Assembly (NCBI GenBank): GCA_031280885.1 | Contig: JAITGD010000100.1 | Span: 1 to 32,986, forward strand | Source: Prevotellaceae bacterium | Lineage (GTDB): Bacteria; Bacteroidota; Bacteroidia; Bacteroidales; UBA932 | Direction of reading: 5' to 3' | Length of the DNA: 32,986 bases | Part shown: positions 9,601-32,360 of the stretch, in pieces | How positions within the stretch are numbered: the stretch's first letter is position 1 | Layout of the letters: every line of letters begins with the position of its first letter | Notes under the pieces: generated by a model | What the model saw: the letters and a program-made list of their open reading frames with translations, nothing else | Told to the model about the DNA's origin: nothing | Databases searched by the model: none | Position numbers and translations under genes: made by a program

Positions 9601-9626
9601 ATATCAGCTCAAAATCAAACATTTAT

Positions 9627-9805
9627 CCCAAGCAGCCTCCGGTCGGTGTCCCAAGCAGCCTCCGGTCGGTGTCCCAAGCAGCCTCCGGTCGGTGTCCCAA
9701 GCAGCCTCCGGTCGGTGTCCCAAGCAGCCTCCGGTTGGTGTCCCAAGCAGCCTCCGGTCGGTATCCCAAGCAGCCTCCGGTCGGTGTCCCAAGCAGCCTC
9801 CGGTC
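9627..9805. repeat. 23-bp tandem repeat (minisatellite), about 7.8 copies
   Basis: A 23-bp unit beginning CCCAAGCAGCCTCCGG and ending TCGGTGT repeats at 9627, 9650, 9673, 9696, 9719, 9742 and 9765, with a last diverged copy at 9788. Copies 1-4 and 7 are identical; copies 5 and 6 have one change each. Because 23 is not a multiple of 3 and the unit has no stop codon in several frames, it opens long chance ORFs on both strands, none of which looks like a real protein. Confidence 0.95.
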
Positions 9806-14430: not shown

Positions 14431-14541
14431 CAGTAGCTATGCTCTTGTTATACGATGGTTAGACAGTAGTTATACCGGTGGTTATACAGTAGTTATACCA
14501 TAGTAAGTTTGACGATACATAAAGGTTGATATTTCTTTATT

Positions 14542-15661: not shown

Positions 15662-15739
15662 CAACAGCACAAGCAGTTTTGAACGTTTATAAAGAAGCTC
15701 TGTCGATTTCAATCCAGCAAAGCCTTCGATTTCAGTCGA

Positions 15740-15925
15740 GCAAAGCCCTCGATTTCAGTCGAAAGCCCACCTCTATCTTACTCTGCATCAGCTTAAGCTA
15801 TCGTATGCCGGCAGCTTCTTGTCCTTGCTCGGTGTGTTCCCACACACCAATCAGAATCAGCCTGCTGTTTTAGGTCGGTGTGTGGCGACACACCGACCTA
15901 AAACCGGAAGGTGTTTTAGGCTGAT
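15740..15925. repeat. 186-bp repeat, copy B (downstream of the DUF4469 gene)
   Basis: Collinear with copy A at 14615-14800. It shares CAAAGCCCTCGATTTCAGTC, TCGTATGCCGGCAGC, TCTTGTCCTTGCTCGGTGTG, AATCAGCCTGCTGTTTTAGG and AAACCGGAAG. The first hairpin has lost its perfect arm (ACACACCAAT in place of ACACACCGAG); the second is kept with compensating ends (GTCGGTGTGT with ACACACCGAC). An extra TTCGATTTCAGTCGAGCAAA unit lies just upstream at about 15724-15743. Confidence 0.85.
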
Positions 15926-26246: not shown

Positions 26247-26297
26247 GTATCTTTTTTTGACTTAATGATTAGTGATTAATGATTAATCATTCTTTTT

Positions 26298-26423
26298 GGA
26301 CTTTTGGACTTTTGGACTGTTAGACTTTTGGATTTTTATGGACTTATGGACTTATGGACTGTTAGACTTTTGGATTTTTATGGACTTATGGACTTTTGGA
26401 CTGTTAGACTTTTGGATTTTTTT
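26298..26423. repeat. 42-bp tandem repeat, three copies
   Basis: A 42-bp unit built from GGACTTATGGACTTATGGAC, TGTTAGACTTTTGG and ATTTTTAT starts at 26298, 26340 and 26382. The copies differ at few positions (TTTTGG or TTATGG). A related, degenerate stretch recurs at about 26846-26912. Confidence 0.9.
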
Positions 26424-26433
26424 GGATGGATTT

Positions 26434-26461
26434 GTATTGGTGTTGCGCGCAACGCCCCTAC
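26434..26461. repeat. 28-bp palindrome, copy 1 (one arm decayed)
   Basis: Centre TTGCGCGCAA, right arm ACGCCCCTAC, left arm GTATTGGTG, which has lost perfect pairing with the right arm at two positions. It is preceded by TTTGGATGGATTT and followed by GCG, as in copy 2. Confidence 0.8.
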
Positions 26462-26465
26462 GCGA

Positions 26466-26717
26466 CCTCACAAAAAGGATTTGTAACCTTACAAAAGTGA
26501 TTTGTAAGCTTACAAAAGTGTTTTGCGACCTTATAAAAATGATTTGTAAGCTTACAAAAGTGTTTTGCGACCTTACAAAAATGATTTGTAAGCTCACAAA
26601 AGTATTTTGCGACCTTACAAAAAGGATTTGTAACCTTACAAAAAGGATTTGTAACCTTACAAAAAGGATTTGCGACCTTACAAAAAGGATTTGCGACCTT
26701 ACAAAAAGGATTTGTAA
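26466..26717. repeat. 21-bp tandem array, 12 copies, each an imperfect palindrome
   Basis: The unit begins CCTTACAAAAAGGATTTG and ends TAA or CGA (21 bp). Most units contain TTACAAA and TTTGTAA as inverted halves. Units 2-7 alternate in pairs (a unit ending TAA, then one starting GC and ending CGA), giving a 42-bp higher-order period; units 8-12 are nearly identical. The period is a multiple of 3, so a chance 149-codon frame runs across both arrays. Confidence 0.95.
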
Positions 26718-26845
26718 CTATCCAAAGCCCCGCAACCTTATTTAAACCTTATTTAAATAACAAAACAAGCTCAGTAGCTAAGTTGATAATACGCAAAACA
26801 ACCTCATTACCTCATTAGATAAATGCAATTATCTATCTTTTTTGG

Positions 26846-26912
26846 ACTTTTGGACGTTTTTTTTGGACTTTTGGACATTTGGACGGTTAGACCTTTGGAT
26901 TTTTTTGGATGG
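26846..26912. repeat. Degenerate copy of the TTTTGGAC repeat family
   Basis: TTTTTGGACTTTTGGAC, GGACATTTGGACGGTTAGAC and CTTTGGATTTTTTTGGATGG follow the same order as 26382-26430 and lead into palindrome copy 2, so a segment containing repeat plus palindrome is duplicated. Confidence 0.75.
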
Positions 26913-26916
26913 ATTT

Positions 26917-26944
26917 GTAGGGGCGTTGCGCGCAACGCCCCTAC
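26917..26944. repeat. 28-bp perfect palindrome, copy 2
   Basis: GTAGGGGCGTTGCG (26917-26930) is followed at once by its exact reverse complement CGCAACGCCCCTAC (26931-26944). REP-like; no RAYT transposase gene is in the window. Confidence 0.9.
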
Positions 26945-27084
26945 GCGATGAAAAAATGATGTTGTGGAAGACCTACGGCCTTCTTGGGATGCTGTGGATT
27001 GTTTTTCTATTGATATTAATGCCCTGCGGGCATCAGGATTGCGTAGTGATTTTTGATACATCAGAAAAAAGTTTGCTGCCACTA

Positions 27085-27140
27085 ACAGTCTAACAGTCTA
27101 ACAGTCCAACAGTCCAAAAAAAAAGTCCAACAGTCCAAAA
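27085..27140. repeat. CTAACAGT / CCAACAGTCCAAAA repeats, inverted relative to the upstream family
   Basis: Tandem CTAACAGT and CCAACAGT words, then two CCAAAA runs, are the reverse complement of the TTTTGGACTGTTAGAC family. They lie immediately upstream of the V-ATPase B promoter. Confidence 0.75.
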
Positions 27141-27147
27141 AAAATAC

Positions 27148-28520: not shown

Positions 28521-29066
28521 ATGAAATTTTATCGAAGTAAGTTCGCTTTCGAGCTGTGTGTTCTCACATGCTTTTTGGGGGGGATGTCGGCGACGGGTTG
28601 CGTCGAGGATCACGCGCCGATACTTTCGACGGCAGCGATAAAACCCGAAAAATTGATAGCAATCAATAAATATCTTGTCGAAAAGGAGAAAGAAGTAATC
28701 GAGCTTTTTGTACGTCGTCAGGGCTGGAAGATGACTCGGACGGAGGATGGTTATTATTGCGAGATTTTCGACGAGGGTTCGGCACGCAAGCCTCTTGCAG
28801 GCGAGTTAGTGATTTATCGTCGGAAGGTAAAATTGCTTGATGGGACTCTTTGTTACGAAACGGAAGCGGAAATGCCCGAAGGATTTATCGTAGATGGCGA
28901 CGATGAGATTTCGGGCATGCACAGGGCGGTTCGATGTTTGGGTGCGGGAGCTTGTGCGCGGTTTATATTTCCTCAAAGGTTGGCGTATGGACTTCAGGGC
29001 GATTTCGACCGGATTCCACCGCTGTCGGCGCTGGTTTATACAGTCGAGATTATCGAGATTAATTGA
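28521..29066 (+). CDS. FKBP-type peptidyl-prolyl isomerase lipoprotein (GldI-like)
   Basis: 181 residues. The N-terminus is a lipoprotein signal with lipobox SATGC (Cys 27). A helical segment (about 40-70) leads to a C-terminal FKBP domain with AGELVIYRRKVKLLDG, ISGMHRAVRCLGAGACARFIFP, a YGLQGD flap and PPLSALVYTVEIIEI. The plan and length match GldI, the gliding-motility PPIase lipoprotein, though several FKBP active-site positions are not confidently matched. It starts 24 nt after the V-ATPase B gene, so is likely cotranscribed. Its 3' end overlaps convergent hisS by 31 nt. Confidence 0.8.
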   Translation: MKFYRSKFAFELCVLTCFLGGMSATGCVEDHAPILSTAAIKPEKLIAINKYLVEKEKEVIELFVRRQGWKMTRTEDGYYCEIFDEGSARKPLAGELVIYRRKVKLLDGTLCYETEAEMPEGFIVDGDDEISGMHRAVRCLGAGACARFIFPQRLAYGLQGDFDRIPPLSALVYTVEIIEIN

Positions 29067-30415
29067 TTGCGCGCTTCGGCGGTAAGCTCAATCGGAGTTT
29101 GTTCTCTGTTTCTCATGTTTCGGATCATGGCCGAGCGGGATTTAATTTCGTCGCCTCCGATTATTGCCACGAAGGGGATTCCTTTTTTATCGGCATATTC
29201 GAGTTGTTTTTTCAATTTTGCATTTTCGGGATACAGTTCCACAGCGACACCATCCATCCGAAGGGCATTTGCGATGTTCAAGCAGTGAATTTCTTCTTCT
29301 TCGCCCATGTTTGCGAACATGATTTGAGTTCCGGCGTCGGCGCTTTTAGGAAAAAGTTCGAGCGCGGTCAGCACATCATAGATGCGGTCGGCTCCAAAGG
29401 ATATTCCTACTCCTGAAATATTCTTCAAGCCGAAAATTCCGGTTAGGTTATCGTATCTACCGCCTCCGCAAATGCTTCCGATTTCCACGCCGTTGGCTTT
29501 TACTTCGATGATTGCTCCGGTATAATAGTTGAGGCCTCGAGCAAGCGCGAGGTCGAGTTCGATTTTCACCTTGATTCCTGCTGACGCCACATAGCTAAAC
29601 AGTTTTCGGGTTTCGTTCAGGCCTTCGGCGGCGATTTTTGAGTTGTGAAGAATCAGGTCGAGCTTCGTTAGTTTTTCGTTCGACGAGCCATTCAGTATCA
29701 AAATAGGTTCGAGGATTTGCCATTGGTTTTCGGTGAATCCGCGGGATTTCAATTCATCTTTGACGGAGTTTAAACCAATCTTTTCGGTTTTATCAATAGC
29801 CACTGTCAGCTCGGTAAGATGCTCGCTCATGTTCATAATTTCGGCGATTCCGGCCAGAATTTTGCGGTTATTGATTTTAACGGTAACGTCGATGTTCAAT
29901 TTCGAGAACACTTTTTCGATAATTTGCAATAATTCGGTTTCGTTAAGCAGAGAAGAGCTTCCGATGACGTCGGCGTCGCATTGATAGAACTCGCGATAGC
30001 GTCCTTTTTGCGGTCTATCGGCTCTCCATACAGGTTGAATCTGAAAGCGTTTAAACGGGAATGTGATTTCGTTACGATGTTGCACAACGTAACGGGCAAA
30101 GGGGACTGTTAAATCGTAACGAAGGCCTTTTTCGCAGATACGGCTGCTTAGGGCGGCAGCAGCGTCGTCGTTGAGAAGATCCTTAGGCACATCGCGAAGA
30201 AAGTTTCCAGAGTTGAGGATACGGAAGAGGAGTTTGTCGCCTTCATCGCCGTATTTTCCGGTAAGGGTATCGAGCTGTTCCATAGCCGGAGTTTCAATTT
30301 GAACAAATCCGAAGAGTTTGTAAACTTCTCGGATCGAGTCGAAGATATAATTTCGTCTTGCGGTTTCAAGCGGCGAGAAATCGCGTGTACCTTTTGGTAT
30401 TGAGGTGTTACTCAT
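29036..30415 (-). CDS. hisS: Histidyl-tRNA synthetase
   Basis: 459 residues from the ATG at 30415 (MSNTSIPKGTRDFSP, the usual HisRS start); a longer frame to 30496 would run into the hairpin array. The enzyme charges tRNA-His with histidine in the cytoplasm. Class II motif 2 is FQIQPVWRADRPQKGRYREF and the histidine-specific RGLNYYTG motif is present in the middle. The C-terminal anticodon-binding domain carries GIPFVAIIGGDEI. The last 31 nt overlap the convergent PPIase gene. Confidence 0.97.
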   Translation of the reverse strand: MSNTSIPKGTRDFSPLETARRNYIFDSIREVYKLFGFVQIETPAMEQLDTLTGKYGDEGDKLLFRILNSGNFLRDVPKDLLNDDAAAALSSRICEKGLRYDLTVPFARYVVQHRNEITFPFKRFQIQPVWRADRPQKGRYREFYQCDADVIGSSSLLNETELLQIIEKVFSKLNIDVTVKINNRKILAGIAEIMNMSEHLTELTVAIDKTEKIGLNSVKDELKSRGFTENQWQILEPILILNGSSNEKLTKLDLILHNSKIAAEGLNETRKLFSYVASAGIKVKIELDLALARGLNYYTGAIIEVKANGVEIGSICGGGRYDNLTGIFGLKNISGVGISFGADRIYDVLTALELFPKSADAGTQIMFANMGEEEEIHCLNIANALRMDGVAVELYPENAKLKKQLEYADKKGIPFVAIIGGDEIKSRSAMIRNMRNREQTPIELTAEARNQLISIISTV

Positions 30416-30460
30416 AATAGTATTTTGTAAATGTATTTTTGAATAATTGATATGATAAAA

Positions 30461-30807
30461 GCCACAAAGTTTGTTCGGAAGGTTTAAAAAATGCAAACTA
30501 AAAAAAAGAAAATGAAAAAGAAAATCATTTTAACGGAGATAAATCCGACTCGCTTTGTGGCTATTTGATCTATTTAAAGCCACAAAGCTTGTCGGAAATC
30601 AAAAATATTTAAAACTAAAAATGAAAAATTCACTAAAAATATGAAAAAAACATAAGAAGATACCGATTTGCTTTGTGGCATAAATTCTGTTTGACGTCAA
30701 GAGTGTTTTAAAGCCACAAAGCTTGTCGGCGAAAAATAAACATTAAGAAATGAATACGTGTATAACTAAAACTATAACAATAAACAAAATCCGACTTGCT
30801 TTGTGGC
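30461..30807. repeat. Array of three related long-loop hairpins
   Basis: Unit 1 is 30461-30561, unit 2 is 30579-30679 and unit 3 is 30713-30807. Each starts with a version of GCCACAAAGCTTGTCGGA and ends with a version of TCCGACTTGCTTTGTGGC. The arms pair as GCCACAAAGC with GCTTTGTGGC and GTCGG with CCGAC, separated by a symmetric TT/TT mismatch (cleanest in unit 3). Loops are 59-65 nt and A-rich but not conserved in sequence. Units 2 and 3 are followed by ATAAA, then TCTGTT. Short frames in the loops (for example at 30491) do not look conserved. The array fills the space upstream of hisS. Confidence 0.9.
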
Positions 30808-30971
30808 ATAAAATCTGTTCGATTCATTGAGGTCTAACAGTGTGTAAATCTATTTCAAACAACGTGATTTCAAGGGCTTTTCCAATTTTATCAAGCTACC
30901 TGCTTTCAGACGATTCATGTGGTCTTCGGCGGGTCAAATGTAATAATTTTTTGAATGTACTTCATTTCGTT
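30808..30971. other. Intergenic sequence, nothing recognised
   Basis: AT-rich tail between the hairpin array and the 3' end of the CHU_C gene; no ORF, terminator or repeat supported. Confidence 0.4.
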
Positions 30972-32360
30972 TTACTGTCCGCGAAACAGATGTACTGTTC
31001 CGGTGAATTGTTTTCCGGCATATTGTTTTCCGTCCCATCCATCGCCGGAGACTACGTAGTGATATATTCCCGAAGCACATTCGGCTTTATTTCCCAGATA
31101 CCTTCCGTTCCAGCCTTCCCAGAGGGCAGCTTCTCCGGCGTACTTGTAAACGAGGTTTCCGTTGCGTCCGTATATTTTGATGTTTATGTTTCGCATCGAA
31201 GTCGGTTCGTTTCCGACGATAAATTTGAAAACGTCGTTCATTCCGTCTCCGTTAGGCGAGAAAACATTTGGAATACTTGAGCTTTCGAGCAGCGAATGTT
31301 CCACCGTAAGGTCGTATTCTTTTCCGGCGGCGTCGCGCGGACGCGCCATACTGCGACATCCGGTGCTTGTGTTTTCGACGGCGAGGCTCACCGGCCATAT
31401 TCCCGGCGTATAATGTATTTCGTCGGCGATATTTTCTGTGTTATAAATCCAAAGGGTATCGTTTTTTTGGATATTTATTTCCTGATTAAACATTCCTATC
31501 CAGCGGAACTTATCGGCATTTATACTTTTGTTATTCAGTTTGATTCGATATAGCGCTTCGCCTCTGAAAGTGGTCGTTGGAGTAAAGATTCCGTTTTCGT
31601 CGCGCACAAGCACGTCGAAATCGGCATACGAAGCCAAACAAGGAACCGTCGCTGAAGTGATTTTATTCGACCGATAACCAAAAACATCCGTCATTTCGGC
31701 GGAATATTCGGCGTCGGCAAGTGGAGCGGGGTCGATTCGTGTGAAATACATATCGCGCGAGCTTTTCCAAGCGTCGTTTGTATATCGTCCGCCGGCGCTG
31801 ATGTCGGCGCTTGCTTCCCACGTGATTGTAAAATTGTTTCTGATGAATTTTGTTTGTATTGCATTGAGGTCGCAGAAATCGAAATAGTCAAAATAATTTG
31901 GATTTGTGCGATATTCTTGTTCGGCTTCGACTTCGAGTTTGAGAAAATCGCAGTTATTGTCGGCGACAATGATGTTGTTGAGCACAATTTTGTCGTAAAA
32001 CACCCAAGCTCTGAAAGTGTCGGCTTCGGCAGCATTGCTTCGACGTAACATGTAGCCTCCGGGCTGTACATCGACGATGGATTGAAGTTCGGAAGAATCG
32101 GTTTGAACAAGATTGACTGTCTGCGTAGATTCGTCGAATTTGTACCATTCAAAATGCGCCGGCAATCCATCCGTGCTTGAGGATTTGATTTGTGGCTGAT
32201 TTTGATACGGAACAAAGAAAGTGAAGATAAAAGTAGAATCGTTCACTTGCATATTATGCTCCACCCTGCTGTAATCGGCCCTAATACCGACGATCTGCGC
32301 AACGACGTCGAATCGAGCTAAACAGCATATAATCAGAAGAACTATGTGAACTTTTTTCAT
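30972..32360 (-). CDS. Secreted protein with gliding-motility/T9SS C-terminal domain (CHU_C)
   Basis: 462 residues. The signal peptide MKKVHIVLLIICCLARFDVV is followed by AQ. The middle (about 25-350) is beta-rich, with repeated Tyr and Asp, and not assigned. The C-terminal CHU_C domain (about 362-462) is clear: SIPNVFSPNGDGMNDVFKF, NINIKIYGRNGNLVYKYAG, WEGWNGRYLG, ASGIYHYVVSG and a closing TVHLFRG. Such domains direct export and surface attachment by the type IX secretion system, so the organism should have one. A TACATTTG box lies 25 nt upstream. Confidence 0.9.
   Translation of the reverse strand: MKKVHIVLLIICCLARFDVVAQIVGIRADYSRVEHNMQVNDSTFIFTFFVPYQNQPQIKSSSTDGLPAHFEWYKFDESTQTVNLVQTDSSELQSIVDVQPGGYMLRRSNAAEADTFRAWVFYDKIVLNNIIVADNNCDFLKLEVEAEQEYRTNPNYFDYFDFCDLNAIQTKFIRNNFTITWEASADISAGGRYTNDAWKSSRDMYFTRIDPAPLADAEYSAEMTDVFGYRSNKITSATVPCLASYADFDVLVRDENGIFTPTTTFRGEALYRIKLNNKSINADKFRWIGMFNQEINIQKNDTLWIYNTENIADEIHYTPGIWPVSLAVENTSTGCRSMARPRDAAGKEYDLTVEHSLLESSSIPNVFSPNGDGMNDVFKFIVGNEPTSMRNINIKIYGRNGNLVYKYAGEAALWEGWNGRYLGNKAECASGIYHYVVSGDGWDGKQYAGKQFTGTVHLFRGQ

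Follow-up and report, generated by a model that had tools for sequence, protein, structure and literature searches.

What kind of element is the array of three inverted repeats that lies in front of hisS in a Prevotellaceae bacterium, and why do its ends remain matched while its interiors do not? The window, the whole stretch of 32,986 nucleotides that was analysed, carries this array in noncoding DNA between the gene of a T9SS type B sorting-domain protein and hisS, both coded on the same (minus) strand. A sequence-only reading had described three long-loop hairpins with two-box arms upstream of hisS, and had suggested a new family of structured repeat, a folded single-strand recombination site or a regulatory leader of hisS. 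The three inverted repeats are present where that reading had placed them (Table 1), and our preferred interpretation, held at slightly less than even confidence, is that they form a REPIN/BIME-like cluster that is an orphan and was amplified in a single lineage, within the noncoding T9SS-hisS DNA.

The array is built from a 17-nt word, GCCACAAAGC-NN-GTCGG, which occurs in six copies of strictly alternating orientation within 30461-30807. These copies form three inverted repeats in tandem. The spacers of units 1, 2 and 3 measure 66, 67 and 61 nt, and gaps of 17 and 33 nt separate the units. Each arm comprises two boxes (GCCACAAAGC-TT-GTCGG / CCGAC-TT-GCTTTGTGGC). The TT/TT mismatch that had been said to split the boxes in all units is found at the centre of the fold in units 2 and 3, but unit 1 has TT/TC and deviates in its left arm (GCCACAAAGTTTGTTCGG) by one additional base, its pairing being retained despite the altered arm. 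On the plus strand, A accounts for 59-66% of each of the three spacers, and all keep the same A-rich orientation. The short flanks, TTTAAA on one side and ATAAAnTCTGTTnGA on the other, would have been copied along with the units.

Table 1. Features of the T9SS-hisS region, with positions in the window
Feature	Position	Strand	Details
hisS, histidine-tRNA ligase	29036-30415	-	TIGR00442, E 5.5e-118
Noncoding stretch, T9SS gene stop to hisS start	30416-30971		about 556 bp; holds the array
Unit 1, inverted repeat	30461-30561		101 bp
Arm 1L	30461-30478	+	GCCACAAAGTTTGTTCGG, diverged copy
Unit 1 spacer, A-rich	30479-30544		60% A on plus strand; alignment to other spacers at chance level
Compact hairpin, unit 1/unit 2 gap	30544-30596		arms 1R and 2L; 11 bp + 2x2 mismatch + 6 bp; 15-nt loop (predicted)
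Arm 1R	30545-30561	-	GCCACAAAGCGAGTCGG as minus-strand reading
Unit 2, inverted repeat	30579-30679		101 bp
Arm 2L	30579-30595	+	GCCACAAAGCTTGTCGG
Unit 2 spacer, A-rich	30596-30662		66% A
Compact hairpin, unit 2/unit 3 gap	30663-30729		arms 2R and 3L (predicted)
Arm 2R	30663-30679	-	GCCACAAAGCAAATCGG as minus-strand reading
Flank after arm 2R, conserved	30680-30694		ATAAATTCTGTTTGA; 13/15 identical to 30808-30822
Unit 3, inverted repeat	30713-30807		95 bp
Arm 3L	30713-30729	+	GCCACAAAGCTTGTCGG, same as arm 2L
Unit 3 spacer, A-rich	30730-30790		59% A
Arm 3R	30791-30807	-	GCCACAAAGCAAGTCGG as minus-strand reading
Flank after arm 3R, conserved	30808-30822		ATAAAATCTGTTCGA; 13/15 identical to 30680-30694
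T9SS type B sorting-domain protein gene, upstream of hisS	30972-32360	-	TIGR04131, E 9.1e-10; PF13585

Between units 2 and 3, the arms and flanks match at 52 of 55 positions (95%), comprising 23/23 in the left flank and arm, 16/17 in the right arm and 13/15 in the right flank. The spacers, in contrast, align no better than shuffled sequence of equal composition, which bears out the earlier remark that the loops diverge against conserved arms. The ends are conserved and the spacers are not; that pairing is the reason may be inferred. A failure of the arms to covary had been proposed as grounds for abandoning a structural reading, and among the 15 pairs examined across the three units, 11 are invariant, three carry a one-sided wobble change and none has changed on both sides; with three copies, too few to be decisive, this absence of compensatory change neither proves nor excludes a selected structure.

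The same six alternating 17-bp copies, regularly spaced at two distances (61-67 bp and 17-33 bp) and with A-rich spacers skewed on the same strand, could also be six protein-binding sites on double-stranded DNA with A-rich DNA between them, serving as an operator or as a recombination or inversion site (e.g. three tandem invertons), and five tyrosine recombinases are encoded in the genome. We consider this improbable, given that the centre is TT in the left arms and AA or GA in the right arms, so that paired sites differ, that the array lacks an adjoining recombinase gene, that every spacer lies in the same A-rich orientation and that the spacers hold weak promoter matches, none of them clean.

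Folding on both strands, which had been suggested as a check, is strong throughout: on both strands each unit folds far better than its dinucleotide shuffles, with z from -3.7 to -5.3, as does the whole array (z -6.5 and -7.3). Any of the six arms can base-pair with any other that runs the opposite way, and the predicted fold of the array is ambiguous. Under DNA energy parameters, the three units appear as hairpins, whereas the RNA-energy minimum consists of compact hairpins spanning the inter-unit gaps, with arms 1L and 3R closing the remainder; the hairpin in the gap between units 1 and 2 reaches -29.3/-29.9 kcal/mol (z about -9). The long-loop picture is one of these two predicted folds, recovered with DNA parameters but not the RNA minimum, in which the gap-spanning hairpins are more stable.

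The geometry of the hairpins had called to mind the attC sites of integrons, in which two paired boxes lie on each side of an unpaired central spacer, followed by a variable loop, and whose hallmarks are a GTTRRRY core, extrahelical bases involved in strand choice and gene cassettes (PMC3518468). The array resembles such folded single-strand recombination sites in its boxes, which pair and are separated by an unpaired, symmetric spacer, in its variable loops and in its tandem copies. It departs from them (PMC3518468) in its loop of 61-67 nt and symmetric 2x2 mismatch, and in the lack of core, extrahelical bases and cassettes. Direct reading of the arms revealed no GTTRRRY/RYYYAAC core, as the sequence-only reading had itself observed; no extrahelical base is common to the units, the 1-nt bulge of unit 1 being unshared and units 2 and 3 having just the symmetric 2x2 mismatch; no cassette ORFs lie in the 17 and 33 bp gaps between units, and no integrase gene adjoins the array. 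An attC-type identity is therefore scarcely credible.

Turning to the neighbouring genes, the T9SS gene and hisS nearly abut in all ten congeners with a readable junction, where the array is absent, and the distance from the T9SS stop to the IPKG motif of hisS is 571 nt here vs 13-88 nt in the congeners. About 550 noncoding bases, including the array, are therefore extra in this species. A loss in the other congeners would be a less simple account than a gain here, and since hisS is only 62-72% identical among these species, the date of the gain is not a fine one.

Such a position, directly upstream of hisS on its sense side, together with mutually exclusive stems of similar strength, makes a cis-regulatory hisS leader possible, and this is the main rival to the REPIN/BIME-like reading: alternative six-arm pairings, within units or across gaps, would switch transcription or translation. 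A Bacteroidota-type promoter match, itself weak, is located on the minus strand immediately upstream of unit 3 (CTTG-N18-TAGATTTA, 30874 to 30845), and promoter scans of the array region returned weak matches only. The placement of the array between the T9SS gene and hisS, on the coding strand that the two share, is in keeping with the earlier leader proposal, but the array is missing from 10/10 congeners with a readable hisS junction, its arms show no compensatory changes, and the nearest stem, some 45 nt from the start codon, leaves that codon uncovered. Nor does a known leader class apply: none of the Rfam covariance models, including T-box, reached its gathering score (just noise at E up to 5), and no site in the array has the compact stem and T run of an intrinsic terminator, which also speaks against the hairpins being ordinary terminators. 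We judge the leader unlikely on balance. A more specific version, in which lineage-specific interchangeable stems between two cotranscribed genes give hisS an RNA switch with several states, or an insulator, with no need of a transposase, is decidedly doubtful. Mimicry of the tRNA-His acceptor stem (GTGGC/GCCAC) was also considered and rejected, the strands running in opposite order.

The same strand could instead encode tandem small genes for hydrophobic, type I toxin-like peptides, read from units 3 and 2, each of which spans an ATG before the first arm to a TAA after the second (MPQSKSDFVYCYSFSYTRIHFLMFIFRRQALWL; MPQSKSVSSYVFFIFLVNFSFLVLNIFDFRQALWL) and is open. The unit lengths of 101, 101 and 95 are in phase, the 15 nt preceding the ATG are conserved and the single arm difference is synonymous (AAA/AAG). 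However, 25% and 47% of shuffles leave the T-rich strand open by chance, unit 1 lacks a start and contains three stops although its arms continue to pair, the start codon borders on the stem or falls within it, and unit 3 has an alternative frame of greater hydrophobicity; with no Pfam match and no relative among 399 family genomes, such genes are very improbable.

The search for copies of the arms, which covered the whole genome, placed them at this locus only: within two mismatches the arm sequence is confined to the array, and up to three mismatches no copies were found elsewhere in the assembly beyond the control rate. What had been proposed as a new family of structured repeat is thus a structured repeat, but a single locus rather than a dispersed family. 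Beyond this genome, a DNA-similarity search of 61 genomes returned no homologue of the array, just A-rich chance matches; the arm pattern revealed no array in 200 family genomes, where single scattered matches were near control level; and a covariance model run on 13 genus genomes recovered just the three units, all others being A-rich chance matches at E 0.03 or worse. The outer-arm pair, sought in about 85,000 species (one genome each) and viral contigs, yielded single unrelated hairpins and no array, and no such array was found in the phages and plasmids searched. Other tandem arrays of at least two inverted repeats sharing arms were absent from 1.58 Mb of own, congener and family DNA. Hairpin arms beginning with GCCACAAAGC do occur in unrelated phyla (L056, L060, L062 and L066; Clostridia, Planctomycetota, Ignavibacteriales and Bacteroidales), and those of L060, L062 and L066 run on into CCACAAAG/CCACGAAG-like words. 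A congener (G006, contig C249, L191:1400-1620) has a 42-bp tandem repeat, AAAAATACATTATGTAAAAAGTTTCTCGACTTGGTCGGGAAG, every unit of which contains a small hairpin.

The REPIN/BIME-like reading draws on two described systems. Tandem REPIN clusters have their units in tandem together with flanks, with short unshared stretches between units (PMC3116915), and BIMEs consist of regularly spaced intergenic units of alternating orientation (PMC2817692). Like the tandem REPIN clusters of Pseudomonas fluorescens, the array has conserved inverted ends of 16-17 nt, a freer spacer and a long hairpin, and likewise tandem units, conserved flanks, short unshared stretches, an extragenic location and a lineage-specific occurrence (PMC3116915). 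With BIME-2 or atypical BIMEs it has in common regular units, alternating orientation, two kinds of intervening segment and an intergenic position (PMC2817692). The array therefore has short, conserved ends that lie inverted to each other and pair into a hairpin, the spacer between them being less conserved, and its flank-bearing units stand in tandem with alternating orientation, whereas many dispersed copies are not present, 3-mismatch matches elsewhere being at about control level.

REPINs occur in hundreds of dispersed copies and are linked to RAYTs (PMC3116915), unlike the array, which occupies one locus and for which no RAYT was found: the RAYT-type Y1 transposase model (PF01797) gave no matches in the 89%-complete assembly while control genomes gave matches. 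Tandem REPINs are usually near-identical throughout, whereas the spacers of the array are fully diverged. In BIMEs every unit is itself a REP, palindromic and headed by GT(A/G)G (PMC2817692), which the 17-nt arm is not; REPs have an internal palindrome, and the arms here are without a clear one. Because the layout fits and two defining features, dispersed copies and a RAYT, were not found, we call the array 'REPIN/BIME-like' by architecture and orphan by descent. Y1 (IS200/RAYT-like) transposases are present in five other genomes of the genus (G001, G003, G006, G009 and G010).

A further likeness is to the BrickBuilt MITE of Porphyromonas gingivalis, which is intergenic and species-limited, with inverted ends and a tandem structure in a Bacteroidales genome (PMC4596501), and for which effects on neighbouring transcription are possible (PMC4596501). 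Unlike the array, BrickBuilt has 19 dispersed copies, and a 23-bp minisatellite makes up its interior (PMC4596501). The array itself was rejected as a MITE on account of its single genomic location, with no target-site duplication evident at its ends by eye. It was rejected as a replication origin as well, there being no DnaA-box cluster at the array; GC skew was uninformative.

On the REPIN/BIME-like reading, local tandem amplification would have taken a palindromic element, about 95-100 bp long and matching over 17 nt at its two ends, to three units, flanks included; the first copy may have arrived by transposition through a since-lost transposase, or arisen by template-switching at a quasi-palindrome. 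The ends would then have stayed matched while the A-rich interiors drifted, the pairing ability of the ends being what is kept. If the T9SS-hisS region is transcribed, the leader RNA of hisS would contain strong stems formed by the six arms, either inside units or, with greater stability, across gaps, and these stems might partly decouple hisS from the upstream gene. The array would persist as structured, mostly tolerated DNA, its paired ends presumably maintained through either gene conversion or selection that acts on structure.

If this is true, the locus holds a REPIN-like tandem cluster at a single site without a transposase, its ends kept and its interiors free, inserted in a tight gene pair. 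It would also be a natural test case for asking what maintains paired ends, gene conversion or selection for a structure in RNA or DNA, and a clean one, as ten close relatives have the locus and lack the array. If inert, the array would be a further instance of the genome's repeat-rich intergenic DNA.

That background is considerable. Intergenic long-loop inverted repeats number about 65 per Mb in the 1.07 Mb surveyed (about 40% of the genome), and a randomised genome sequence (first-order resampling) yields almost none at the observed scores. Many of their arms are words of 7-11 nt (TTTTGGAC, CCAAGA, AATTATG, GCAGAAA, TTGTTATACA, CCACAAAGC), and CCACAAAGC, the start of the array arm, is about fourfold over-represented in the sampled genome (35 vs about 8, the six-arm array counted in). 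The array could be a functionless by-product of the process behind the genome's short-word hairpins (arms e.g. CCACAAAGCTCACAAAG): CCACAAAGC opens other repeats too (e.g. L090:2140-2297 and L094:5100-5330), and inverted repeats are somewhat rarer between divergent genes (9/53 vs 64/208). Against this, those families, which are single hairpins or direct repeats, contain neither the second box GTCGG nor a two-box arm, and neutral drift fails to explain ends conserved at 95% beside unalignable spacers. We give such an origin a low probability; the array's outer box may be drawn from the genome's word stock, the second box and tandem layout being its own.

Other repeats of this genome deserve mention. 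Very large intergenic inverted repeats, with arms made of runs of degenerate 7-11-nt words, lie at 26293-27146 and 157-409 of the window, and likewise at L073:7114-7399, L091:19211-19407 and L125:10469-10751; their arm words (TTTTGGACTGTTAGAC; CAAGAACCAAGA; TTGTTATACA) belong to many families genome-wide. At L094:5100-5330, units of about 40 bp (ATTCCCACAAAGCTCACAAAGCTCACAAAGTTTTTTCTTTA) are repeated directly in tandem. A hairpin with the sequence TTTTACCGCAAAGGGCGCAAAG...CTTTGCGGTAAAA, about 65-87 bp in length, is dispersed over at least four places (L124:2259-2343, L087:4289-4375, L073:4923-4987 and L173:6613-6697), and the L124 and L087 copies, the two read out, have flanks in common, as in a MITE. 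Finally, intergenic tandem repeats with a 23-bp unit of differing sequence (e.g. TCCCAAGCAGCCTCCGGTCGGTG x 7.8) are found at 9626-9805, 15703-15762 and 14447-14499 of the window, a period equal to that of the BrickBuilt minisatellite of Porphyromonas gingivalis (PMC4596501).
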